From a bacterium (GTDB lineage Bacteria; JAMCPX01), in the NCBI GenBank assembly GCA_021787665.1, contig JAJYLN010000001.1, positions 186,001 through 250,000 on the forward strand: DNA of 64,000 bases. The letters run 5' to 3'. The notes beneath the pieces were generated by a model that ran no database searches, was not told the DNA's origin, and saw only the letters and a list, made by a program, of their open reading frames with translations. The position numbers and the translations under genes were made by a program. Every line of letters starts with the position of its first letter. Positions within the stretch are counted from its first letter, which is position 1. Shown here one piece after another: positions 830 through 13,638 of this stretch.

Positions 830-2242
830 TTAATCATGTATCCTATTGATGGAGAGATTTTTAAAGATGAACCGGCGAAACAGGTAAGACATGAGTGTAC
901 CTAATCTCACGATCTTGAACATATTCATAAATTTTTGGGGCCTCAGATAAAATCTCATGTATGCCTTCCTCTGGAGTTTCTCAAGCTGATTTATGCTGAC
1001 CGTATCGAGCTCGAGCGACCTGCCGACGTGCTTGTTGTAATCCCTCCAATCGTTCGAGATCATCTTTAATCCTCCCCTGCCGTCTTTAACCATATCGATA
1101 AGTCCTGTCCCGGGAAACGGCGTTAGGACCGAAAACAATGCAGCGTCAATATCGAGGGAGTTAGCAAGATCGATAGTCCGATTGATGGAATCGACCGTAT
1201 CATAGGGGAGACCTATGATAAAATTGGCGTATATATCGATGCCTGCGTCCTTTGTCCATGTTATAGCATTTTTTATCTCTTCTATCTTAAGACCTTTCAC
1301 GGCCTTATCGAGTATCGCCTGATCACCCGACTCTATACCATAAGAAATTATCCTGCATCCAGCCTGCTGCATTTTTTTGAGCAGTGGTGCATGAACGACA
1401 TCGGCCCGTGTTGCGCAGTTCCATGTAATCTCTTTATGAATGCCCGTTTTGATCAATTCGTCGCAGATCGATTCTGCCCGCTTCATATTGATGGTAAAGG
1501 TATCATCCATAAACGTTATCCTGTTGGCATGATACACTTCAATATCTCTTATTATCTCATTGATAACCAAGTGCACATCTCTATACCTTATAATCTTGCC
1601 TATGGTCCTAAAACAGAAGACGCAATCGTAAGGGCAGCCTCTCGATGTCATGACCGGCAGCTCGGTGATTTTATGGTTCGGGAATACATAAAAAGGCCGG
1701 TATAATTTCAAGTCGAAACCTTCAAAATCGAGAGGAGGAAGTGCATTGACGTCGAGATACGGTCTTTGAGGAGTTACCACGACATCCTTGCCGTCCCTAT
1801 AAGCGATACCCTGGATACTTCTGAGGACATCCCTGTTGTTAGAAGCTATTGCCTTCAGCAGTTCCGGGAGTGTCAGTTCGCCCTCGCCATAGACAAGGTA
1901 GTCAAAGCTGCTGAATTCTTTCAGTGTTTGCTCCGGCAGCGCAGAGGCATGATAACCACCGAGTATCGTCTTGACCTCCGGCGACATCTCTTTAATTTTT
2001 TTTGCAAGTAATGACGCTTCGTAGACCTGCTCTGTCAGGGCTGTTAGACCTACGATATCCGGCTTTATCTTCTGTATCCTCTTTATCAGTTCCGCTCGTG
2101 AAAGACCTTCTGCAATGGCATCTATACTAGTAACATCGTATCCCTTTTGTCTCAGAATGGTAGCCATATAAATTATACCGATATGCGGAACAGACCAGCC
2201 GCCACGTGTAGAAAATGGCGGAATAATGAAAAGTATTTTCAT
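830..2242 (-). CDS. B12-binding radical SAM protein
   Basis: A full-length 470-residue protein. Residues 1-145 form the cobalamin-binding domain (start MKILFIIPPF, GGYHASALPEQTL, YGEGELTLPELL); there is no DXHXXG cobalamin-ligating motif, as in many members of this family. The radical SAM domain has CPYDCVFC (CX3CX2C) near residue 205, then GKIIRYRD, FMDDTFT, GIESGDQ and PFPGTGL. The protein closely resembles the one encoded at 7203-8594 through most of its length, so the two are paralogues. It sits downstream of the rSAM gene at 2327-3910 on the same strand with an 84-base spacer. Family knowledge suggests methyl transfer or ring chemistry on a lipid or glycan; the substrate is unknown. Confidence 0.9.
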   Translation of the reverse strand: MKILFIIPPFSTRGGWSVPHIGIIYMATILRQKGYDVTSIDAIAEGLSRAELIKRIQKIKPDIVGLTALTEQVYEASLLAKKIKEMSPEVKTILGGYHASALPEQTLKEFSSFDYLVYGEGELTLPELLKAIASNNRDVLRSIQGIAYRDGKDVVVTPQRPYLDVNALPPLDFEGFDLKLYRPFYVFPNHKITELPVMTSRGCPYDCVFCFRTIGKIIRYRDVHLVINEIIRDIEVYHANRITFMDDTFTINMKRAESICDELIKTGIHKEITWNCATRADVVHAPLLKKMQQAGCRIISYGIESGDQAILDKAVKGLKIEEIKNAITWTKDAGIDIYANFIIGLPYDTVDSINRTIDLANSLDIDAALFSVLTPFPGTGLIDMVKDGRGGLKMISNDWRDYNKHVGRSLELDTVSINQLEKLQRKAYMRFYLRPQKFMNMFKIVRLGTLMSYLFRRFIFKNLSINRIHD

Positions 2243-2326: not shown

Positions 2327-3910
2327 CTATTTAAACAATCTTTTCAGGACAAAAGAAGCAAGGGTGTCTATGTACCTGAGGGAATAGCTTGGTCTGAATT
2401 TGGTGGCGACATGAGAAACAGAGCATAGGTATTTGCCGAAATTCGGATTTATAAAACAGTAATTTTTACATTGAACCTTCATCATTTCTTTTTCCGAAGA
2501 GCCAGCCAGACAATATCCTCTGCTGAACCATGACCGTGCATGGTCTTTGTAATAATCAAGGAAGGTCTTTCTCGTTAAGACGATATTAAATTTCTCTGGA
2601 TAATAAAACATGGGTGAAGCCGGGTCAAGTTCCAGCGGGACAGTAATGACCTGTTTTATATTATTGTATTTTTTGAGCTGCTTCTGCAAGGTGACTGTTT
2701 CCTGAATATCCTTTCCTGTTTCCATCGGCAGTCCTCCGGAAAAATAAATACCTGTATTTACCCCTTTTTTCTCCATATAGCTCAGGGTCTGCAAAAAATC
2801 AGCGTTGGTATAAAAATAACCTTTATTGATTTTTCTCAGCCTCTCGGATCCGCTTTCCGGCGAGATAATTATCTGGGAATCTGCGGTGAACGTGGCGCTG
2901 AACTCGTCTATGAAATCAACGGACGGCAGCGCGTATGCGTTGAAGTTGTAAGTTATCTTGAGCTTATGATCTCGTATGGTTTTAAAAAGCTCTAAAAAGA
3001 ATTTCCTCGAGTTTTGTTCGGGAAGATCAAAATCCGTGTTGAAGCTTTTAAAACCCCACTGCAGACCTTCTCTTATGTTATCTACTATCCTTTCTGGCGA
3101 TCGTAACACGATCCGTGCTCTGCCGTTTATGATACCATTCGCATCATAGCCTCCGCCACAAAAGCTACAATTTGCCGTACAGCCCTTGCCGATCGGGAGA
3201 TACATGGATGCAACAAGGGAGCTCTTATAAATGATATCGTTTATGACCGGACTGGTGTTAAAGTTAAAGAAAAATAACTGCGGATAAAACTTGTAGTTCT
3301 CCATGAGAGAATAATTGCTGTAAGAAGCACTGTCCAATATCTCCTTGGTCGTTACATAATTCTGGGCATTTTGTACAACACTGCCGCTGTTCCGCCTCGT
3401 AAGATTGGGTACCGAAGCCATGTCGCCGCAATTTTTAACGATCTGATCGACTACCGCAAGAAGCGGGACTTCACCATCTCCGGCTATGATTGCATCGATG
3501 AATCCGAAGTTTTCCAGTATCTCGTCTTTAAAAAAGCTCGCTGTGAGACCACCCAGGACCAGAAATGTATCGGGTAAGACCCGCTTTACTTCTTTTGCAA
3601 TCTCGATAGCGTCAAACGACTGGTGATGCCAATGGAGCGCAACACCTACAACCTTTGGCTTTGTAGACAGGAGGTATTCCCGCAGAGAAAAGTCCTTTGT
3701 GAATAGCCTCTCGATACCGAGGTGCAAGACCCTGCTTTTGAATCCATGCCTTTGCAAGAAGTCTGCCATAAAAAGAAGGCCCATGGGCATAAGATTAATA
3801 AATTGTACCTTATTGAAGGGGTGTACATAATGGCTGAATTTGGGGGTATGTATAAGAAGGCAATCGAGGTTTCTGCTGTTATCATTGGGTGATACTCGTA
3901 CCATACTCAT
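2327..3910 (-). CDS. B12-binding radical SAM protein, divergent type
   Basis: A 527-residue protein with an N-terminal B12-binding-like domain (residues about 10-190: LLIHTPKFS, VLGGLTASFF, GDGEVPLL) and a radical SAM domain with CTANCSFC (CX3CX2C) near residue 265, then SPESGSERLR and a C-terminal cysteine-containing tail (CKNYCF, near residue 490). It is clearly less similar to the other rSAM proteins here than they are to one another. The start is either the ATG at 3910 or the third codon ATG at 3904; neither has a strong Shine-Dalgarno, and the 10-bp palindrome GACACGTGTC lies 5 bases upstream. A promoter and a leader ORF lie about 210-285 bases upstream. Its function is unknown beyond the family. 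Confidence 0.87.
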   Translation of the reverse strand: MSMVRVSPNDNSRNLDCLLIHTPKFSHYVHPFNKVQFINLMPMGLLFMADFLQRHGFKSRVLHLGIERLFTKDFSLREYLLSTKPKVVGVALHWHHQSFDAIEIAKEVKRVLPDTFLVLGGLTASFFKDEILENFGFIDAIIAGDGEVPLLAVVDQIVKNCGDMASVPNLTRRNSGSVVQNAQNYVTTKEILDSASYSNYSLMENYKFYPQLFFFNFNTSPVINDIIYKSSLVASMYLPIGKGCTANCSFCGGGYDANGIINGRARIVLRSPERIVDNIREGLQWGFKSFNTDFDLPEQNSRKFFLELFKTIRDHKLKITYNFNAYALPSVDFIDEFSATFTADSQIIISPESGSERLRKINKGYFYTNADFLQTLSYMEKKGVNTGIYFSGGLPMETGKDIQETVTLQKQLKKYNNIKQVITVPLELDPASPMFYYPEKFNIVLTRKTFLDYYKDHARSWFSRGYCLAGSSEKEMMKVQCKNYCFINPNFGKYLCSVSHVATKFRPSYSLRYIDTLASFVLKRLFK

Positions 3911-4121
3911 CTCTCGACACGTGTCAACCTTGTTTGTTTTAGTCCGAAGCGGAAGTAGTTTCCGATTTTCTGCTCTGTCCTTTTCATGCCGATATACTAT
4001 ACCGAACGACTTTGGGTAGTCTTATATGATCAACGAAAAATATAACCCTTCCGTCGAATAAAAACAAAATAATTCCCCGGCATAACTTGACCTCAGACTA
4101 TCAGAAGATCCGCGACTCTAT

Positions 4122-4145
4122 TTATCTTGGTGCAGGCCGCCACAT
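4122..4145 (-). CDS. Leader peptide MWRPAPR (copy 1)
   Basis: On the minus strand GAGGAG (4152-4157) is followed by ATG at 4145 and seven sense codons reading MWRPAPR, then TAA. The start lies 21 bases after a TATACT -10 element, so a transcript would begin only about 15 bases ahead of it. The same seven residues are encoded by different codons at 7062-7091 (CGG against AGA, CCT against CCG, GCA against GCT). Both copies precede a B12-rSAM gene; the stop here is 211 bases from the gene start at 3910. A role as an attenuating or ribosome-pausing leader is an inference; only the conservation and the signals are seen. Confidence 0.6.
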   Translation of the reverse strand: MWRPAPR

Positions 4146-4166
4146 ATTTTTCTCCTCGTATAGTAC

Positions 4167-4194
4167 AGTATAAAGAATTTTCAACGATTGTCAA
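4167..4194 (-). promoter_or_regulatory. Sigma-70-like promoter for leader and rSAM gene
   Basis: Read on the minus strand: TTGACA (4194-4189), a 16-base spacer, then TATACT (4172-4167). It points toward the MWRPAPR leader and the rSAM gene at 2327-3910. The -35 is perfect and the -10 matches 5 of 6. Confidence 0.7.
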
Positions 4195-4309
4195 ATAGTT
4201 TTTTTCTCTCTTGTTTTTTTCTCTCTATTTCCAATTTATCTTGCTCATCAAAGGGCTCTATACTACGATACTTGTACAGATATGATTACACAGGGGGAAT
4301 GTGCTCATA

Positions 4310-6856
4310 ATGAAACACCTTAAGAGGTTCTTGCCATACCTGATAGTCGCCCTCGTCTCTTATCTTTATCTGTCCCTGTACAGCCATTACCTGTTCGCCA
4401 CCAACCCGGGCAACGATGAGGGCCTGATGAGCGGGGCATGGAGGATCATGCACGGACAGATGATCTACAGGGACTTCTTCCAGGTGTTCTTCCCGGGGGA
4501 CTTCTACCTCATGGCATGGCTGTACAGACTGTTCGGATTCGGCATCGTAGTGTCCAACTATATCATTATTATCATGTCGTGTATAATCAGCGTCCTGCTG
4601 TATCATATATCGCGGCTCGTCATAAAAAGGTGGTATGCAGTCCTCGCGCCACTGCTCTTCCTGACCTTCGGATACACGGAATGGTTCACCCTCAACTATT
4701 ATATCCCATCTACCATTACGCTCCTGCTGGCCCTCATAGTCCTCGACAGGTTTATGCACACCGACAAGAGTCTCTATCTGTATCTAGCCGGCCTGCTCGC
4801 CGGGCTGACCATGTTGATATTGCAGTCAACCGGCGTATACATGATAGTTATCCTCACTCCTCTTATCTATTTCACCTATGTGCCAGGTACAGCAGGGAGA
4901 GATCAACAATCGGTCAGACGTCAGAGGCTCTATGCATCGCTGAAATTCCTATCAGGCGCAGCTGTGCCTTGTGTTCTCATGCTGGTGTTTCTGGCGGCAA
5001 ACGGGGCATTTCTGCCTTTCTTAAGGGACCAATACACATTGTTTGTCCTGTATCCAAAAATAAACCTGTTCTATATGAAGCCGGTCGCATCGCTAAGGTA
5101 TATTGTAGAGCCGCTGAAGCTGCTCTTTATTTTCACGCTTGCGGCAAGCCTTTTCCTCCTGTTCACAAAAAGATATCATTTACCTGAAGAACTTCTACTC
5201 TGTATTGGCAATATTATATTATTTTTAAATGTTCCTCATCACATTATGCTGGTCATTCCGGGAACTACCTATATAAACATGGGGTTGAGCATCGTATTCT
5301 CCGTGTATATCCTCTGGAGACTTGAGGAACTTCTCAAGAGGATTAGTTGGGAGCCAATCTTTCGGATTATCAGGAGGCTGTTCAGTATAGCGGCTTTTGC
5401 AGGTATTGGGGCAGTATGCGTACTTATGTTCCAAAACATGAGATTGATCGACACACAGGCCTATCATTTCAAACTTATGCATGAGCACCTATGGTCCTTC
5501 GACAGATACGGCGCATCAACGCTTGTTGACTTCATCAGTAAGGCCGACAGGATCATAGGCAGTGACAGAAATGTACTCGCCTATCCATTTGCTCCTCTCC
5601 TCTATTCTGTCATGAATATAGAAAATCCCACGGGATATGATTCAATTCCAAGCTTCGGAGTTAAGTATGGTGCCCCGAGATTCATGCTTGCAGACATCGT
5701 CAACAAGCTCAAAGCTTCGCACAATAAATATATAATTATACACAATTGGTCTTACTCGACACTTATGCGCCTCTATAAAATGAACAATATGAAGTTCCAT
5801 CCCAATGTATTGGAAAAATTTATATTGGAGCACTATCAAAGTGTCCTCACTATCGGTAATTTCTCCTTGTTAAAGTTTACGACCTCTGCACGTGCCTCTT
5901 TTGTGGAAGTCCTTCTTATCGGCGCAGTCAAAAGCACAGGTGTTTTTACCCTTCTTGCGGATAACAACAAGACCACTCCGACCCTCTTAGACCTTTTAAA
6001 ATATGCAGGCGTGGTCAGACAAAGAGCCGATTTCAGCAACATAATTATAATCCGGAACGGCGAAGAGCGGATCGTAGACTTGACCAAGTATTTTCAAACA
6101 GGCGATCAACGCTATAACCCGCGTCTGTATGATCATACTGTGATCTATGTTCCGGGCAACACTGCCCCTCTCGATTCAAAACGAAACATGAAGCTCATTG
6201 AAGATTTTCTTAAAATAGACTTTCAGCAGAGCAGCCACATACTCATGAACAGCAATGGAATTCATTCAGGCAATATCGTTCAGAAGACCATATCTGTTAC
6301 TATTGCCGGCGACGTGCAGCATGCAGGTAGCTTTACGCTCGACAAGGGTGCGAGGCTTGCGAATGCCTTCACCATGACAGGCAGGCACCTGCAAACAGCG
6401 GATTACAGCAAAATCGTCATCCTGCGGCATGACCATTTGATAAAGGCGAACCTTTTACGCTATGTACGGACAAAGAACCATGTCTATAACCCGATTCTCC
6501 ATGACAACGATTTTATTTATTTCCCCGTCGTCAGATACAAGACCATCTCGATAATCATTATCGGCGCTGTGAAGCATACCGGGGACTTCACCTTGCGCGA
6601 GCATACGAGACTGGCAGATACCTTTACCCTGACCGGCGGACCGCTTCCCGCATCGAACCTCAGCCGCATCGCTATCCTGAGACACGGCAGACTGATAACA
6701 ACTAACTTTCTAAACTATATACAGATGAAGAATGCTGCCGACAACCCACTTCTGCAGAATAATGATATTGTGTATGTGCCCAAGGGCAACGAGCGTCCTG
6801 ATACCGACTACATTAAACAGCTGGTACATGGCACCACCTCTGGTGCCGGGAAATAG
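4310..6856 (+). CDS. GT-C type membrane glycosyltransferase fused to three SLBB domains
   Basis: An 848-residue protein. Residues 1-390 are a polytopic membrane region with an acidic DEG motif in the first loop and a FFPGDFYLMAWLY segment, as in PMT_2/ArnT-like GT-C enzymes that use polyprenyl-phosphate sugars. About residues 390-530 are a soluble, presumably periplasmic, domain. Three SLBB-type beta-grasp domains follow at about 530-620, 660-742 and 744-828, each with the signature I-I-G-V-x-H-x-G-x-F-T-L, an A/G-rich helix and N-N-D-I-V-Y-V-P. SLBB domains normally belong to Wza-like polysaccharide export proteins, so this fusion is unusual. The start is taken at ATG 4310 (GGGGG 12 bases upstream); a GTG at 4301 is possible but too close to the Shine-Dalgarno. 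The N-terminal part is homologous to the proteins at 8605 and 19497. Confidence 0.85.
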   Translation: MKHLKRFLPYLIVALVSYLYLSLYSHYLFATNPGNDEGLMSGAWRIMHGQMIYRDFFQVFFPGDFYLMAWLYRLFGFGIVVSNYIIIIMSCIISVLLYHISRLVIKRWYAVLAPLLFLTFGYTEWFTLNYYIPSTITLLLALIVLDRFMHTDKSLYLYLAGLLAGLTMLILQSTGVYMIVILTPLIYFTYVPGTAGRDQQSVRRQRLYASLKFLSGAAVPCVLMLVFLAANGAFLPFLRDQYTLFVLYPKINLFYMKPVASLRYIVEPLKLLFIFTLAASLFLLFTKRYHLPEELLLCIGNIILFLNVPHHIMLVIPGTTYINMGLSIVFSVYILWRLEELLKRISWEPIFRIIRRLFSIAAFAGIGAVCVLMFQNMRLIDTQAYHFKLMHEHLWSFDRYGASTLVDFISKADRIIGSDRNVLAYPFAPLLYSVMNIENPTGYDSIPSFGVKYGAPRFMLADIVNKLKASHNKYIIIHNWSYSTLMRLYKMNNMKFHPNVLEKFILEHYQSVLTIGNFSLLKFTTSARASFVEVLLIGAVKSTGVFTLLADNNKTTPTLLDLLKYAGVVRQRADFSNIIIIRNGEERIVDLTKYFQTGDQRYNPRLYDHTVIYVPGNTAPLDSKRNMKLIEDFLKIDFQQSSHILMNSNGIHSGNIVQKTISVTIAGDVQHAGSFTLDKGARLANAFTMTGRHLQTADYSKIVILRHDHLIKANLLRYVRTKNHVYNPILHDNDFIYFPVVRYKTISIIIIGAVKHTGDFTLREHTRLADTFTLTGGPLPASNLSRIAILRHGRLITTNFLNYIQMKNAADNPLLQNNDIVYVPKGNERPDTDYIKQLVHGTTSGAGK
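6290..6735 (+). repeat. SLBB-encoding DNA repeat, copy A
   Basis: This stretch encodes the second and third SLBB domains and is highly similar at DNA level to about 10774-11219 in the next GT-C gene (offset 4484). Bases 6374-6471 are identical to 10858-10955 (98 of 98), including synonymous positions, while flanking parts diverge. This indicates recent duplication or gene conversion. Confidence 0.85.
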
Positions 6857-7010
6857 TAAATGACGATGAGTTGCAGTGCAGGCTGAAAGTGGTTCTATTT
6901 CTGTCTGGCCTATCTGCATCGGTATGCCGGTGGACTTAATACTGAAAGGCGGAACATAACATCAGGTGTTTGACATCATGTGGCTGTCCCTGCCTGTGGC
7001 TGTCCCTGCC

Positions 7011-7039
7011 TTGACATTATCTCCTATTTTACTTATTCT
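7011..7039 (+). promoter_or_regulatory. Sigma-70-like promoter for leader and rSAM gene
   Basis: TTGACA (7011-7016), a 17-base spacer, TATTCT (7034-7039). It lies 22 bases before the MWRPAPR start codon, almost the same geometry as the minus-strand copy at 4167-4194. Confidence 0.65.
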
Positions 7040-7061
7040 CCTTAAAAAGGAGGGAGTTGCT

Positions 7062-7091
7062 ATGTGGAGACCGGCTCCAAGAATAAATTAA
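7062..7091 (+). CDS. Leader peptide MWRPAPRIN (copy 2)
   Basis: AAGGAGG (7048-7054) is followed 7 bases later by ATG 7062 and nine codons reading MWRPAPRIN, then TAA. The first seven residues equal those of the minus-strand mini-ORF at 4122-4145, with different synonymous codons, and both follow a TTGACA promoter at the same distance. The downstream gene is a B12-rSAM protein 111 bases further on. Conservation of the peptide rather than the DNA argues for selection on translation; the regulatory role is inferred. Confidence 0.62.
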   Translation: MWRPAPRIN

Positions 7092-7202
7092 CGATAATCC
7101 GTAATGAGAGATCATGTGTCTACGTTTTGGAGGGCTCTATATTGTGTGGGAAAAGTCATTATGTAAGGTCACGCTCTTTCTAAAGCGGGTTACCCTGCTC
7201 TC

Positions 7203-8594
7203 ATGAAAATACTCTTTATAATACCTCCGTTTTTGTCAGAGGAAAAAGCCTTTACGCATACCCCCCAGGTTGTCCTGTATCTCGGAATGGCCTACCTTTC
7301 TGCATTTTTAAAACATGAAAAATACGAAGTCCATATTATTGATGCAATTGCTGAAGGGCTATCGAAACAAGCGCTTCTCAAAAAGGTTGCCGAAATAAAG
7401 CCTGCTGTTGTTGGCCTGACTTCTCCGACACAGCAAATCTACGATGCAGCGGTTGTCGCAAAAGAAATCAAAGATATGTTTCCAGAGATTAAAACAATTA
7501 TTGGAGGCTATCATGCATCTGCCCTACCAGAGCAAACACTAAAAGAATTTAATAGCTTTGACTATCTTTTGTACGGTGAAGGCGAATTGACTCTGCCAGA
7601 ATTGCTGGCAGCAATAACTACCGACAAGGATGATATACTTAAAAATATAAAAGGGATCGTCTATAGAGACGGTAATAGAATTATTGTAAACCCTCCACGA
7701 CCGTATATTGACATAAATGTGTTACCGATGCCCGACTTCGACGGCTTTAATTTAAACCTATACAAACCATTTTATACCTTTTTTAATAAAAAACTATTGG
7801 AGCTTCCCATCATGACATCAAGGGGTTGTCCTTATAATTGTGTTTTTTGTTTTAGAACAAATGGTAAGAGCGTAAGGTATAGAAATTTGCAGTCAGTGAT
7901 AGATGAGATAAAGAGAGACATAGAAATTTATCATATTAGCCATCTTCTGTTCGTCGATGAAACATTTACTTTGAGTATGAAGCGTGCCGATGCCCTGTGC
8001 GATGAATTGATCAGGACTGGTATAAACAAACAGATAACGTGGGGATGCGAGACGAGGGCTGATCTCGTTGATGAAGCATTGCTCAAGAAAATGAAGCAGG
8101 CAGGATGCAGATTCATATCTTACGGAGCTGATTCAGGGGATCAGGAGATACTCAATTATGCTGAAAAGAGCATGAAGGTGCATGATATTAAGAATGCCGT
8201 GCAATGGACAAAACAGGCTGGCATAGATGTATACACTAATTATGTCATAGGTCTGCCATATGATACTGTTGACACAATAAATAAGACCATAGACTTTGCC
8301 ATAGGGCTTGATCCTACTGGCCTATCATTCACAATATTAACACCGTTTCCAGGGACCGAGGTCGTTGTTATGGCCGAAAACGGTGTGGGTGGATTAAAGA
8401 TACTATCATATGATTGGAGAGATTATGGAAAACAGCTCGGCAGTGCACTTGAACTTGAGAAAATTAGCAGGAAACAACTTGAGAAACTTCAAAGGAAGGC
8501 ATATTTGAAATTTTATACAAATCCAAGGAAAATTGCAACGATGTTTAAAACTGTAGGGCTGCGGGCAATAATATCGTACCTTTCCTATAGATAA
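7203..8594 (+). CDS. B12-binding radical SAM protein
   Basis: A 463-residue paralogue of the protein at 830-2242. The cobalamin-binding domain occupies residues 1-145 (MKILFIIPPF, GGYHASALPEQTL, YGEGELTLPELL) and the radical SAM motif CPYNCVFC lies near residue 210, followed by VDETFT, GADSGDQ and PFPGTE. The gene is noticeably AT-rich compared with the window average, as is the first half of the next gene, suggesting joint acquisition. Only 10 bases separate it from the GT-C/SLBB gene at 8605, so the two are surely co-transcribed and probably act on the same polymer or lipid carrier. The substrate is unknown. Confidence 0.9.
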   Translation: MKILFIIPPFLSEEKAFTHTPQVVLYLGMAYLSAFLKHEKYEVHIIDAIAEGLSKQALLKKVAEIKPAVVGLTSPTQQIYDAAVVAKEIKDMFPEIKTIIGGYHASALPEQTLKEFNSFDYLLYGEGELTLPELLAAITTDKDDILKNIKGIVYRDGNRIIVNPPRPYIDINVLPMPDFDGFNLNLYKPFYTFFNKKLLELPIMTSRGCPYNCVFCFRTNGKSVRYRNLQSVIDEIKRDIEIYHISHLLFVDETFTLSMKRADALCDELIRTGINKQITWGCETRADLVDEALLKKMKQAGCRFISYGADSGDQEILNYAEKSMKVHDIKNAVQWTKQAGIDVYTNYVIGLPYDTVDTINKTIDFAIGLDPTGLSFTILTPFPGTEVVVMAENGVGGLKILSYDWRDYGKQLGSALELEKISRKQLEKLQRKAYLKFYTNPRKIATMFKTVGLRAIISYLSYR

Positions 8595-8604
8595 ATAATA
8601 AAGA

Positions 8605-11340
8605 ATGAACTTTATAAAGAAATTAATACCTTATATTGTAATAATCTTGGCCTCTTATTTTTATCTTATCCATTATGTACATTGGCTATTCCTGCTCAGT
8701 GATATAGATGTAGAACATACAATGGCTGAAGCGTTACGAATAACTAATGGACAGGTAATATATAAAGATTTTTTTGAGATCTTCGCACCAGGTAATTTAT
8801 TTTTGCTTGCGCTCCTTTATAAATTATTTGGATATAGTATTATAGTCACGAATAAAGCCTTAATTGGTATAGATATTATTATCAATGTTTTATTATATCG
8901 TATGGCATACATAGTTATAAAACGATGGTATGCTATAATACCATCTTTCATATTGCTTATTGCTGGCTTTACTCGATGGTTTATCTTTAGTCACTATTGG
9001 ACAACGACTATTACAGTTTTGCTGACACTTATAATGCTAAATAATTATTTTGGTGAACAGGCTGATCTTGCAGATAAACAGCACAGCTTATATCTTTTTT
9101 TGACAGGCTTTTTTGCAGGATTGACAGGGATTTTCTTACAATCGGTAGGTGTGTATACGATACTTACAACAGTTATAATCATTTATTTCAAAACAAAAAA
9201 ATACAAAGGGTTGTTAAACAAATTTCTAATTTTTAGTATTGGCATAATATTACCTGTTGCACTATTTATAGTTTATCTGATTATAAATCATGCATTAATA
9301 TCATTTTTTTATGATCAAATTATATTGTTTCGATATTATTATAGGGTAGCCAATTTTGTATTCTATCCTTGGATGTCATGGTCCAGTATATTTAAGCCGT
9401 TACGATTGTTGCTAGTTATATCTTTTATCATCAGTATGTTATTTATTCTACTTAAAAAAGATAAGCCTACACATGAGCTCTTGCTGTTCGGCGGAAATGT
9501 AATCTTTTTTTTGGCTGCAATACATAGAATATTTGATAAGGAAAAGATTGTAACATCCGACGCTAACACTGCGTTCGCTATTCTACTGCTTGTTTATATC
9601 ATAGGGAAAACACCGGACTACCTTCGAAGGGTCAACAAAAGACTTTCTACCATATCATGCTTAGCTTCAAACATACTCTTGGCAGCTATAAGTGTATTTG
9701 CTGTGTTTACAATGTATAAAAATGTAATGGCTCTACAAAATCACTCATACAGCTTTAATATTAACAATACAGAATATTGGTCATTTAATAAAGAGAAGGC
9801 AGAGAATCTGGTTACTTTTATAAAAAAAATGAAAAGAATAATAGGTGACGACTACCAAGTCTTTCCTTATCCCTTTATAGGCGCTCCCTTTACCCTGCTT
9901 AATCTGCACAACCCGACAAGATATGATACATTTTCGAGTTTTGGAAAAGCAGCAAGTGCCCCCGCATACATGATGAACAATATTATAAAAGATTTAATAC
10001 TTACAAAAACGAAATATATTATAACATTCCATTGGTCACACAGGATCTTAATTTTCTGGTCACAGATGAACGGCGTTGTGTATGAGCCGAATACCTTTGA
10101 GCAGTTCATATGGGACAACTTTAAGGATGTGCTCCATGTTGGCATGTATACGCTCTGGAAACTGAATACACTGGAGCCGGGAGATACGATTGTCATATCA
10201 GTAAAAGGCCATCCTGAACTGAATGAGACTGTCACTGTAGCAGACGATGGCTCTATCACCGGTCCCGACAACGTCACTATGAAGGTGGGAGGGCTACCTC
10301 TGTACGCGGTAAAAGGCCTTTATGCAAGAACAATGGGCAGATACGGCATCCCGCCAGACGATATCCGCGTGAGCCCCTATACGGAGCATCTCTTCAACAC
10401 CTCGCACAATTTTATGACAGCCCTTCCCTCCCCACCAGTATTAGGGGACTGTACCTTCTGGGTCTGGAACCAATCGACATGCTACCAAACGGCAAACGCA
10501 CAATCTATCACTACGAAAACAATCACGATCACCTTGCTTCATACTCCATGGAAAGATAAGAAGCTTGTTATCCCTGACAGGACGAGGCTTATGGACGCAT
10601 TGATTAAGGCTGCAGGGACCCTTCCCTCATCGGCCTTTAAGCGAGTCATCATCATACGTGGAAATACGGTCATAAAGGCAGACCTCCTGCGCTACGAGAG
10701 TGATCACAATCCGCGGGACAATCCCCGGTTAATGAACAACGACATCGTGTATTTAAATGACCGACACAAGACTATCTCGGTATCTGTTTTTGGCGACGTT
10801 AGCCATGCAGGTAGCTTTACGCTCGACGTCGGTGCAAGACTTGCAGACGCCTTTTCAATGACAGGCAGGCACCTGCAAACAGCGGATTACAGCAAAATCG
10901 TCATCCTGCGGCATGACCATTTGATAAAGGCGAACCTTTTACGCTATGTACGGACGAAGAACCAGGTCTATAACCCGATTCTCCATGACAACGATATTAT
11001 TTATTTTCCCGTCGTCAGGCACAAGACCATCTCGGTAATCATCATCGGCGCTGTGAGGCATACCGGTGACTTCACCTTATCCGAGCATGCGAGACTGGCA
11101 GATACCTTTACCCTGACGGGCGGACCGCTGCCCATAGCGAACCTCAGCCGAATCGCTATCCTGAGACACGGCAGGCTGATAAAAACCAATTTTTTATACT
11201 ACATACAGACGAGGAATGCTGCCTACAACTCACTCCTGAAGGATAACGATATTGTGTTTATACCAAATAGTAAGGAGCACCCGGGCATCACCGAAATAAG
11301 AGAAGCCGCAAAGGCATGTATCCCGAAAGAAAAGGAATAA
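8605..11340 (+). CDS. GT-C type membrane glycosyltransferase fused to Poly_export-like and three SLBB domains
   Basis: A 911-residue protein. Residues 1-380 are polytopic and homologous to the proteins at 4310 and 19497 (QVIYKDFFEIFAPGN, VIKRWYAIIPS); 380-515 is a soluble domain. About residues 520-592 read like the Poly_export (PES) motif of Wza-type outer-membrane export proteins: LEPGDTIVISVKGHPEL, then TVADDGSITGP. Three SLBB domains follow at about 638-720, 722-804 and 806-890. The DNA is AT-rich up to about 10130 and then changes abruptly to the GC-richer composition of its neighbours, so the gene looks like a mosaic of an acquired membrane part and a local SLBB tail. It is translationally close to the rSAM gene before it. 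An envelope role in polymer synthesis or export is inferred. Confidence 0.85.
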   Translation: MNFIKKLIPYIVIILASYFYLIHYVHWLFLLSDIDVEHTMAEALRITNGQVIYKDFFEIFAPGNLFLLALLYKLFGYSIIVTNKALIGIDIIINVLLYRMAYIVIKRWYAIIPSFILLIAGFTRWFIFSHYWTTTITVLLTLIMLNNYFGEQADLADKQHSLYLFLTGFFAGLTGIFLQSVGVYTILTTVIIIYFKTKKYKGLLNKFLIFSIGIILPVALFIVYLIINHALISFFYDQIILFRYYYRVANFVFYPWMSWSSIFKPLRLLLVISFIISMLFILLKKDKPTHELLLFGGNVIFFLAAIHRIFDKEKIVTSDANTAFAILLLVYIIGKTPDYLRRVNKRLSTISCLASNILLAAISVFAVFTMYKNVMALQNHSYSFNINNTEYWSFNKEKAENLVTFIKKMKRIIGDDYQVFPYPFIGAPFTLLNLHNPTRYDTFSSFGKAASAPAYMMNNIIKDLILTKTKYIITFHWSHRILIFWSQMNGVVYEPNTFEQFIWDNFKDVLHVGMYTLWKLNTLEPGDTIVISVKGHPELNETVTVADDGSITGPDNVTMKVGGLPLYAVKGLYARTMGRYGIPPDDIRVSPYTEHLFNTSHNFMTALPSPPVLGDCTFWVWNQSTCYQTANAQSITTKTITITLLHTPWKDKKLVIPDRTRLMDALIKAAGTLPSSAFKRVIIIRGNTVIKADLLRYESDHNPRDNPRLMNNDIVYLNDRHKTISVSVFGDVSHAGSFTLDVGARLADAFSMTGRHLQTADYSKIVILRHDHLIKANLLRYVRTKNQVYNPILHDNDIIYFPVVRHKTISVIIIGAVRHTGDFTLSEHARLADTFTLTGGPLPIANLSRIAILRHGRLIKTNFLYYIQTRNAAYNSLLKDNDIVFIPNSKEHPGITEIREAAKACIPKEKE
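10774..11219 (+). repeat. SLBB-encoding DNA repeat, copy B
   Basis: Counterpart of 6290-6735. It contains the 98-base perfect match 10858-10955 and encodes SLBB domains 2 and 3 of the 8605 gene. Confidence 0.85.
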
Positions 11341-11418: not shown

Positions 11419-13638
11419 ATGTACAAATCTTTTTTTACGAAACAGTGGGACTACCTTAAACAGGAATACCTCTCGACTATTGCTCCGGGCTTTATATTCA
11501 ATCTGATAGCGTCCCTCGCCTTTCTCGCTATTGTCTTGTTTATATACAGGGCTTCTTTCATATCATCGTTTCTCTTCCTGATAGACGATCGAATCTATAT
11601 CATCCTGAACCCATTCATACAGGAGATCAGCCTGCACAACATAGAGCACATATTCACCCATACATTTTGTGCGAAATGGGCCCCCTTCCACATACTTGCC
11701 TATATGATTTTATACCATTTCTTCGGTCTGAACGCGCCTGCGTTCCATATAGCGAACGCGGTGCTCTTCGTCTCAAACGGCTTTCTGCTGTACCGCATAG
11801 TCTATGCGATGCTCGGAGACAAATACGCCGGCTTGCTGGCTGGCCTGCTATACCTCATTGCCCCCATACAGGTCGAATCCGTAATGTGGGCAGCGGAGCT
11901 CAAGACGACCCTCTCGATCACGTTCATATTCGGCTCTTTCTTAAGCTACATTCGCTACAGAAAGGGCGAAAGGCGAAGCGATCTGCTTATAAGTTTGTTC
12001 TTCTGGGCAATGGCCCTCATGAGCAAGGCCATTGCGTTTACGCTGCCGGTCATGTTTCTTCTGTACGATGTCTTATTCTATCCTGACAAGGTGCGGAAGA
12101 AATACCTGTTATACCTCATACCGATCGCGATAGGCATGCTCTTCGCCGTCAGTTACCTGTTGATCCTCAACGATGTAAGCTCCCAAACGCCGCTGATGCA
12201 ACACCTGAAGACAGCTATCATAAATACTGCCGGGCTATTCTCCTACCCTCTGGGCCAGATATTCCCGTTTCTGGTAATGCCCTACTATAATACCCTACCT
12301 GTCTTCCCCTGGCTGAGCCTACCCGTCATAATATCGATCGTATTCCTCGGGTTAATAGCCTATGTCCTGTGGCGCTACCACAGGACCGTTCCCTATATAA
12401 CATTTTGGCTGATGTGGTACGGCATCAACTTTCTTCCCGGAAGCGGGATCGGTAACGTACCGATGCCGTTTATGGGCTTTATCCCGCAGGGATATAACCA
12501 CTACCTGCCCCTGCCCTTCGCCGGGATAGCCGTCGTGGGAGGCTTTGTGCTGATAAGGCTCTTTGCTATGCTCAGGACCTACGCGGCCAAAAGCGCCTAC
12601 ATTTTATCTGTGGGCCTGATTTTAGCAACGATGTCCATGACCTCAGCTCACGGCGCCTCATGGTTCACAGATAACAGCAACCTGTTAAAGGCCCTCCACA
12701 AAAACTATAGCAACGACCCCGTGGTGACAGCGATGCAGATCAACAGCGACTTTAAGAGCGGCAAGAAAGCGTCGGCATTACGACATCTCTCTGAAATGGA
12801 AAAACAGTTCCCGGACAATCCGCTCACTCACTACTATAAGGGGGTCTCCCTTCTGTTAAAAAACGATAAACGGGAGGCAGAACGGGAGTTCAATATGATG
12901 GTACATGCAATCGGGACTTATACGATAACGAGCCACCTCGATGCATTTCTCTTTGTCGAACTACTGAATAATACGCCATACTCGCAAAGAGACATGGATA
13001 AACTCAGCTTGTCTACAGCTATGACCGAAAACTCGAAAGAATTCTATCCGCATCTCCTGTGCCATGGTACCATCCAGGGGCTGATTGCAGACAAAATCTG
13101 GAACAAAGACATGGACATTAAATTCGCTGCACAAGACTATCTACCCTATATAGCGTATGGCTGCGCTTACCTGCAGCAGCCAGGGAAGAAAGAGAATGCA
13201 TGCGATGCATTCTATAATGCCCTATTAAAAGAACGATTCTTCATGACCAATCCAAAGACATACCACAGTATGCTCCTTAAAGAGACTATACGCGCACTGC
13301 AATGCGAGGTGCCGGTACCTGTCCAAACGGAACTGATACTCTTAGGGGCTGTAAGGCACCCTGGAGATATAGCGCCGGATCCCGGCTTCATGCTCAGGGA
13401 TGCAATCATCTTTGCAGGAGGTCCTTTGCCGGTAGCGGATCTGCGTAACATCTTGATCCTGAGACAGGACAAGATCATCAGGGTAAACTTTATACGGTAT
13501 ATACAGACCGGGGACATCGCTGACAACCCATTGCTGAAAGACAGCGATATTGTGTACATACCAAAAATAGATGAGCAGATCACCGTGTCAGGGATACAGG
13601 ACAGGGCGCGGAAATATCTTGAAAAGGATGATGAATGA
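11419..13638 (+). CDS. TMTC-like membrane protein with TPR and C-terminal SLBB domain
   Basis: A 739-residue protein. Residues 1-430 form a polytopic GT-C-like region with features of the TMTC/O-mannosyltransferase-like bacterial family: a DDR motif in the first loop, FHIANAVLFVSN, LIAPIQVESVMWAAELKTTLS and MALMSKAIAFTLPVMFLLYD. About residues 435-500 contain TPR-like helices (HYYKGVSLLLKND). A single SLBB domain at about 638-725 has the same layout as those in the two upstream genes (LLGAVRHPGDI, FAGGPLPVADL, KDSDIVYIPK). It is thus a different GT-C class carrying the same tail. Its stop overlaps the next start by four bases (ATGA at 13635). A probable role is glycan assembly at the inner membrane; donor and acceptor are unknown. 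Confidence 0.82.
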   Translation: MYKSFFTKQWDYLKQEYLSTIAPGFIFNLIASLAFLAIVLFIYRASFISSFLFLIDDRIYIILNPFIQEISLHNIEHIFTHTFCAKWAPFHILAYMILYHFFGLNAPAFHIANAVLFVSNGFLLYRIVYAMLGDKYAGLLAGLLYLIAPIQVESVMWAAELKTTLSITFIFGSFLSYIRYRKGERRSDLLISLFFWAMALMSKAIAFTLPVMFLLYDVLFYPDKVRKKYLLYLIPIAIGMLFAVSYLLILNDVSSQTPLMQHLKTAIINTAGLFSYPLGQIFPFLVMPYYNTLPVFPWLSLPVIISIVFLGLIAYVLWRYHRTVPYITFWLMWYGINFLPGSGIGNVPMPFMGFIPQGYNHYLPLPFAGIAVVGGFVLIRLFAMLRTYAAKSAYILSVGLILATMSMTSAHGASWFTDNSNLLKALHKNYSNDPVVTAMQINSDFKSGKKASALRHLSEMEKQFPDNPLTHYYKGVSLLLKNDKREAEREFNMMVHAIGTYTITSHLDAFLFVELLNNTPYSQRDMDKLSLSTAMTENSKEFYPHLLCHGTIQGLIADKIWNKDMDIKFAAQDYLPYIAYGCAYLQQPGKKENACDAFYNALLKERFFMTNPKTYHSMLLKETIRALQCEVPVPVQTELILLGAVRHPGDIAPDPGFMLRDAIIFAGGPLPVADLRNILILRQDKIIRVNFIRYIQTGDIADNPLLKDSDIVYIPKIDEQITVSGIQDRARKYLEKDDE

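Follow-up and report, generated by a model that had tools for sequence, protein, structure and literature searches.

MWRPAPR, a conserved seven-residue micro-ORF found near B12-radical SAM genes in one bacterial family, and its possible role as an ultra-short leader peptide

Two very short reading frames beginning with the same seven residues, MWRPAPR, lie on opposite strands of the window, i.e., the 64,000-nucleotide stretch of bacterial DNA analyzed here, and each of them precedes a gene for a B12-binding/radical SAM (B12-rSAM) protein. This raises the question of whether so short a peptide is a selected product and, if so, what it might do in front of these genes. A first-pass annotation had described both frames as led by a Shine-Dalgarno sequence (SD) and a promoter, and had placed them 211 and 111 nt from the B12-rSAM starts; frames, SDs, promoters and distances were all found to be correct (Table 1). 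Both promoters rank among the best sigma70-like matches in a scan of positions 3600-7400, and the ATG is found 21 nt (minus strand) or 22 nt (plus strand) past the -10 element. The surrounding DNA is unlike between the two copies, as had been claimed, with 20/60 identities in the upstream flank and 9/39 in the downstream flank, as compared to 17/21 in the core.

Table 1. Features at the two micro-ORFs and their surroundings. Positions are those of the window, unless preceded by a locus name.
Feature	Position	Strand	Remark
Promoter, minus-strand element	4194..4167	-	TTGACA-N16-TATACT
-35 TTGACA, minus-strand element	4189..4194	-	
-10 TATACT, minus-strand element	4167..4172	-	spacer 16
Shine-Dalgarno GAGGAG	4152..4157	-	minus micro-ORF
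Micro-ORF MWRPAPR*, ATGTGGCGGCCTGCACCAAGATAA	4122..4145	-	conserved, 11 copies
Promoter, plus-strand element	7011..7039	+	TTGACA-N17-TATTCT
-35 TTGACA, plus-strand element	7011..7016	+	
-10 TATTCT, plus-strand element	7034..7039	+	spacer 17
Shine-Dalgarno AGGAGG	7048..7053	+	plus micro-ORF
Micro-ORF MWRPAPRIN*, ATGTGGAGACCGGCTCCAAGAATAAATTAA	7062..7091	+	conserved, 11 copies
B12-binding/radical SAM gene, type B	2327..3910	-	211 nt downstream of micro-ORF; no clear SD
Second B12-binding/radical SAM gene	830..2242	-	same strand; probably one operon with 2327..3910
B12-binding/radical SAM gene, type A	7203..8594	+	111 nt downstream of micro-ORF; no SD
Divergent membrane protein, GT-C-like	4310..6856	+	PMT_2 match and SLBB domains
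Large membrane protein, C-terminal SLBB domains	8605..11340		
Large membrane protein, C-terminal SLBB domains	11419..13638		
Terminator-like short hairpin with T-rich tract	4128-4142	+	strand opposite micro-ORF
Terminator-like short hairpin with T-rich tract	L094:7572-7586	-	strand opposite micro-ORF
Terminator-like short hairpin with T-rich tract	L095:9900-9914	-	strand opposite micro-ORF

The neighboring rSAM proteins carry B12-binding and Radical_SAM domains scoring above the Pfam cut-offs, and no extra peptide-binding Pfam domain was found on them. They are nearest to the BchE, HpnJ and, for type B, TIGR04190 models, far below the cut-offs of these models, and among the listed families no NCBIfam cut-off was reached. 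Type A and type B enzymes are only 21% identical to each other, and both are found behind MWRPAPR. In this lineage, B12-rSAM genes start without an SD (window positions 7203 and 2242; L101-L107), several of them behind pyrimidine-rich stretches such as ..ctgctctcATG and ..ctgtccccATG. Large membrane proteins with C-terminal SLBB domains, an unusual combination, stand beside the rSAM genes.

We then focused on the distribution of the element. The genome to which the window belongs (G000; 2.25 Mb, 35 contigs) holds four exact matches to ATG-TGG-Arg-Pro-Ala-Pro-Arg, all on the window's contig, against none for the reversed-pattern control. Among nine genomes of the phylum, three carry the element, with 11 copies altogether and again no control match: G000 has four, its congener G008 three, and G007, from a different genus within the family, four. 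The initial observation of two copies was thus true, but the set is larger, and its size lies far above chance; a fortuitous match was rejected on the basis of the empty control and because other occurrences of the WRPAPR-coding pattern sit within longer frames. The analysis draws entirely on one family, represented by three genomes that include at least one metagenome-assembled genome (MAG), and the 11 copies cannot be treated as independent. When 84,980 bacterial and archaeal genomes were scanned under an SD constraint, 65 loci were retrieved, two of which look genuine (L053 and L091); both lie in the MAG Deltaproteobacteria bacterium FK_Sedi_A_Bin.102 and match two G008 copies (L010 and L008), and this MAG appears to be G008 itself. 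The remaining loci were discarded, being located inside longer reading frames or lacking a promoter. That scan required GGAG, a condition that misses two of the 11 known copies, and the window's own genome records were possibly excluded. The element had no match in the IMG/VR viral contigs; hence neither these nor the 84,980 genomes, under the SD constraint, yielded a convincing copy outside this lineage. Moreover, no mention of MWRPAPR was found in the literature searched.

The anatomy of the element is the same throughout: TTGACA, a TATxxT-like -10 element after 16-17 nt, an SD, and an ATG 19-24 nt past the -10 are present in 11/11 copies, a placement of the ATG that would leave a 5' UTR of approximately 13 nt. 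GGAG or GAGG precedes every one of the micro-ORFs, as compared to 11 of 65 sampled genes (background 9.5%). After Arg7 the stop codon follows immediately in three copies, while the others add two to five variable residues; the tail therefore spans 0-5 residues, variable in both sequence and length, and the whole frame 7-12 codons. The flanks are nearly unalignable between most pairs of copies. Overall, each copy looks like a complete ultra-short gene, with a sigma70-type promoter, a strong SD, seven invariant codons and a stop.

To avoid circularity, conservation of the peptide was evaluated with patterns that specify only half of it. TTGACA followed by ATG TGG MGN CC, with codons 5-7 free, returned precisely the 11 copies, and TTGACA followed by ATG, three free codons and GCN CCN MG returned the same 11; fixing codons 1-4 thus recovers conserved codons 5-7, and fixing codons 5-7 recovers conserved codons 2-4. 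Allowing one mismatch anywhere added just two matches, both unrelated sequences (MCSPAP) that we read as chance, and this search revealed no degenerate copy of MWRPAPR. In addition, a peptide-blind scan for -35, -10, SD and micro-ORF on both strands of 206 kb, made up of stretches chosen around the elements, found exactly the 11 copies and nothing else. Six of the 21 core columns vary, all six synonymously, with Arg3 switching between AGA and CGN. Were columns free to vary, all six would fall by chance among the seven silently changeable ones with a probability of 1.3e-4, a value to be read as indicative only, since the copies are related. It is therefore the peptide that is conserved independently of its codons, as in nascent-chain arrest leaders, and the earlier proposal that selection preserves MWRPAPR at the peptide level is well supported by these comparisons.

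Some additional constraint may act on the nucleotides. Pro6 is encoded by CCA in 8/11 copies and Arg7 by AGA in 10/11, while the genome fractions of these codons are 0.09-0.26 among Pro codons and 0.17-0.38 among Arg codons; although used for a minority of Pro and Arg residues genome-wide, the two codons dominate positions 6 and 7, hinting at a codon-level constraint there. Furthermore, four type-A copies from two genera (L001, L004, L007 and L010) are identical at 21/21 core nucleotides, even though their flanks differ. The codon bias and these four identical cores would point to some nucleotide-level constraint, or to gene conversion, on top of the peptide constraint. Two further copies, L005 and L009, have similar promoters (47/60) and stand beside GT-C genes about 50% identical; this likeness suggests that L009 is under constraint even though it has no gene to lead, but gene conversion may also account for it.

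Regarding the genomic neighborhood, a same-strand gene is found downstream of 9/11 copies, with ATG-to-ATG distances of 26-405 nt. For seven of the copies, three in G000 and two each in G008 and G007, it is a B12-rSAM gene, and element and B12-rSAM family occur in the same 3/9 genomes. Related genomes, where the first-pass annotation had advised searching, thus show MWRPAPR enriched close to B12-rSAM genes. Nevertheless, its description as a leader of B12-rSAM genes fits these seven copies only: of the others, one precedes mfd, one overlaps ubiX, and two have no downstream gene. The mfd copy (L001, in G000) shows no rSAM gene in its 20 kb stretch, while its G008 counterpart (L010), whose leader can be aligned with that of L001, is separated from mfd by an rSAM gene. 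The mfd gene thus follows element and rSAM gene in G008, and the element directly in G000 (L098:11060-15735, L099:6427-10041), as if an rSAM gene had been lost or gained at this locus between the two genomes. In copy L008, stop codon and ubiX start codon share bases (ATGA), and two B12-rSAM genes are found in the vicinity. In G007, ubiX (L125) starts a few bases past a promoter-like sequence, TTGACA...TAGATAAT, and this position suggests that its mRNA may be leaderless. Lastly, the two copies with no gene to lead (L009 and L011, on G007 contigs C43 and C56) are intact and face convergent genes: L011 adjoins a B12-rSAM gene, and L009 is flanked by two GT-C-like genes, with the end of its contig 1 kb away.

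We also looked for the parts of an attenuator, as attenuation had been put forward as one possible action of the peptide. Folding of the leaders was no better than that of shuffled sequences (z from -0.7 to 0.5, with mononucleotide shuffles, a weaker control than dinucleotide ones), an Rfam search of the leaders gave no match, the spacers contain no C-rich, G-poor rut-like tract, and on the sense strand of the window no terminator separates micro-ORF from gene. The peptide, moreover, offers no run of codons for a single regulatory amino acid, as it contains one Trp, two Arg and two Pro, whose codons interchange. With no terminator, alternative fold, rut-like tract or Rfam element found, attenuation in its usual sense is unsupported.

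What, then, could MWRPAPR do? Starting from what was observed directly, namely anatomy, peptide-level conservation, lineage restriction and neighborhood, we infer translation, pausing, a downstream effect and any signal involved, and tentatively favor, at somewhat less than even confidence, an ultra-short nascent-peptide leader acting via the ribosome in cis. The heptapeptide would be synthesized at the extreme 5' end of the mRNA; Arg-Pro-Ala-Pro-Arg, in the peptidyl transferase center or upper tunnel, would slow or arrest the ribosome, or termination, under some condition; and this pausing could alter stability, elongation or initiation on the SD-poor downstream gene (B12-rSAM, mfd or ubiX). 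That a single unchanging heptapeptide precedes unrelated genes suggests a partner common to all copies, for which the ribosome, acting on the nascent chain, is the simplest candidate, and the occurrence of the same peptide before rSAM families as divergent as types A and B makes such a shared partner likelier than each enzyme. The variable tail after Arg7, in turn, fits a peptide that acts during its synthesis. Together, the common partner and the tail are why the cis leader is preferred. Counting against it are the two intact G007 copies with nothing to lead, the missing fold, rut-like, terminator and Rfam signals, and the fact that RPAP is no known arrest motif.

These same gene-less copies and missing attenuator parts, along with the strong micro-ORF SDs as opposed to the SD-less enzyme genes, keep in play the main rival, itself rather unlikely, in which the element is an autonomous microgene and its peptide, once released, acts in trans, either as a minimal precursor for B12-rSAM enzymes or as a regulatory or signal peptide. 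It would account for the element having its own promoter, for the SD difference, by which the peptide may exceed the enzyme in amount, and for the restriction of the element to genomes with this rSAM family; a comparable layout is known from biarylitides, whose 5-residue precursors are encoded beside P450 genes (PMC13417212). However, the enzymes are closest to the BchE/HpnJ type, below all curated cut-offs shown and with no additional peptide-binding domain; one peptide would have to be common to very dissimilar rSAM types; its C-terminal end is variable; and the mfd and ubiX copies do not fit. That MWRPAPR is an independent 7-12-codon gene, among the shortest known, with a trans-acting product that may be the substrate of the adjacent B12-rSAM enzymes, is an unlikely reading.

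More improbable still is a strong translated promoter cassette, in which early ribosome loading stabilizes the transcript or opens it for the SD-less gene behind, and which spread along with cluster duplications. The fixed spacing of promoter, SD and ATG and the SD enrichment at the micro-ORFs would be expected of it, and the four identical type-A cores may reflect recent spread or gene conversion; but it leaves unexplained why seven residues stay invariant while codons change (AGA to CGN), and why variant or degenerate copies are absent. Very improbable, finally, is a DNA or RNA site (a TGGnG-N5-CnCCA operator or small hairpin) spelling the peptide by accident, an already weak idea which draws on the perfect inverted repeat TGGAG-ACCGG-CTCCA of four copies and on the opposite-strand hairpins of three (Table 1), but is contradicted by the preservation of ATG, SD and early stop, and by a conservation that tracks codons and not symmetry: positions 6 and 9 vary, whereas their mirrors, 10 and 7 respectively, are fixed, and the 4/12 pair is broken in 7/11 copies on the sense strand.

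Seven-codon conserved coding sequences escape gene finders, and MWRPAPR stands out by its unusually clean peptide-level selection, its recurrence before unrelated genes and its lack of attenuator parts. TnaC, ErmCL and SpeFL represent the class of nascent-peptide leader ORFs. The favored cis leader resembles this class in being a short SD-led frame near the transcript 5' end, before structural genes in 9/11 copies, with the peptide and not the codons conserved; it differs in its length of only 7-12 residues, in the use of one invariant heptapeptide before unrelated genes, in having no attenuator or rut-like tract, and in the two copies that lead nothing. If correct, this reading would make MWRPAPR a natural leader of very small size that acts on the ribosome and serves several operons.

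A second comparison is offered by the RAPP/RAGP arrest peptides (SecM, ApcA, ApdA and ApdP; PMC10951299, PMC12992588). In case of a pause at Ala5/Pro6 (R3-P4-A5-P6), there would be a formal likeness to these: an Arg would stand two positions ahead of the residue in the P-site, and a Pro would occupy the A-site. However, RAPP-like arrest needs an R-A/G-P/G-P(G) core and a longer N-terminal arrest-supporting region (PMC12992588), while MWRPAPR has the motif RPAP, no long N-terminal region, and neighbors that are not protein-localization genes; membership in the family was rejected on the basis of motif and length. As for the biarylitides, their precursors of 5 residues are encoded no more than about 500 bp from the enzyme gene, and six copies can be present (PMC13417212). 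MWRPAPR does not fit the biarylitide type of RiPP (5-8 residues, aromatics at positions 3 and 5, a P450 nearby), as it lacks the MxYxH/Y pattern and has B12-rSAM genes instead of a P450, some copies being devoid of any adjacent enzyme gene. If the trans-acting reading were true, MWRPAPR would be the microgene of a minimal peptide linked to the B12-radical SAM enzymes, and the tiny size of the sequence makes both readings directly testable in vitro. Nevertheless, the general arrangement is shared with the biarylitides: an ultra-short conserved peptide gene near a tailoring-type enzyme gene, sometimes in several copies per genome.
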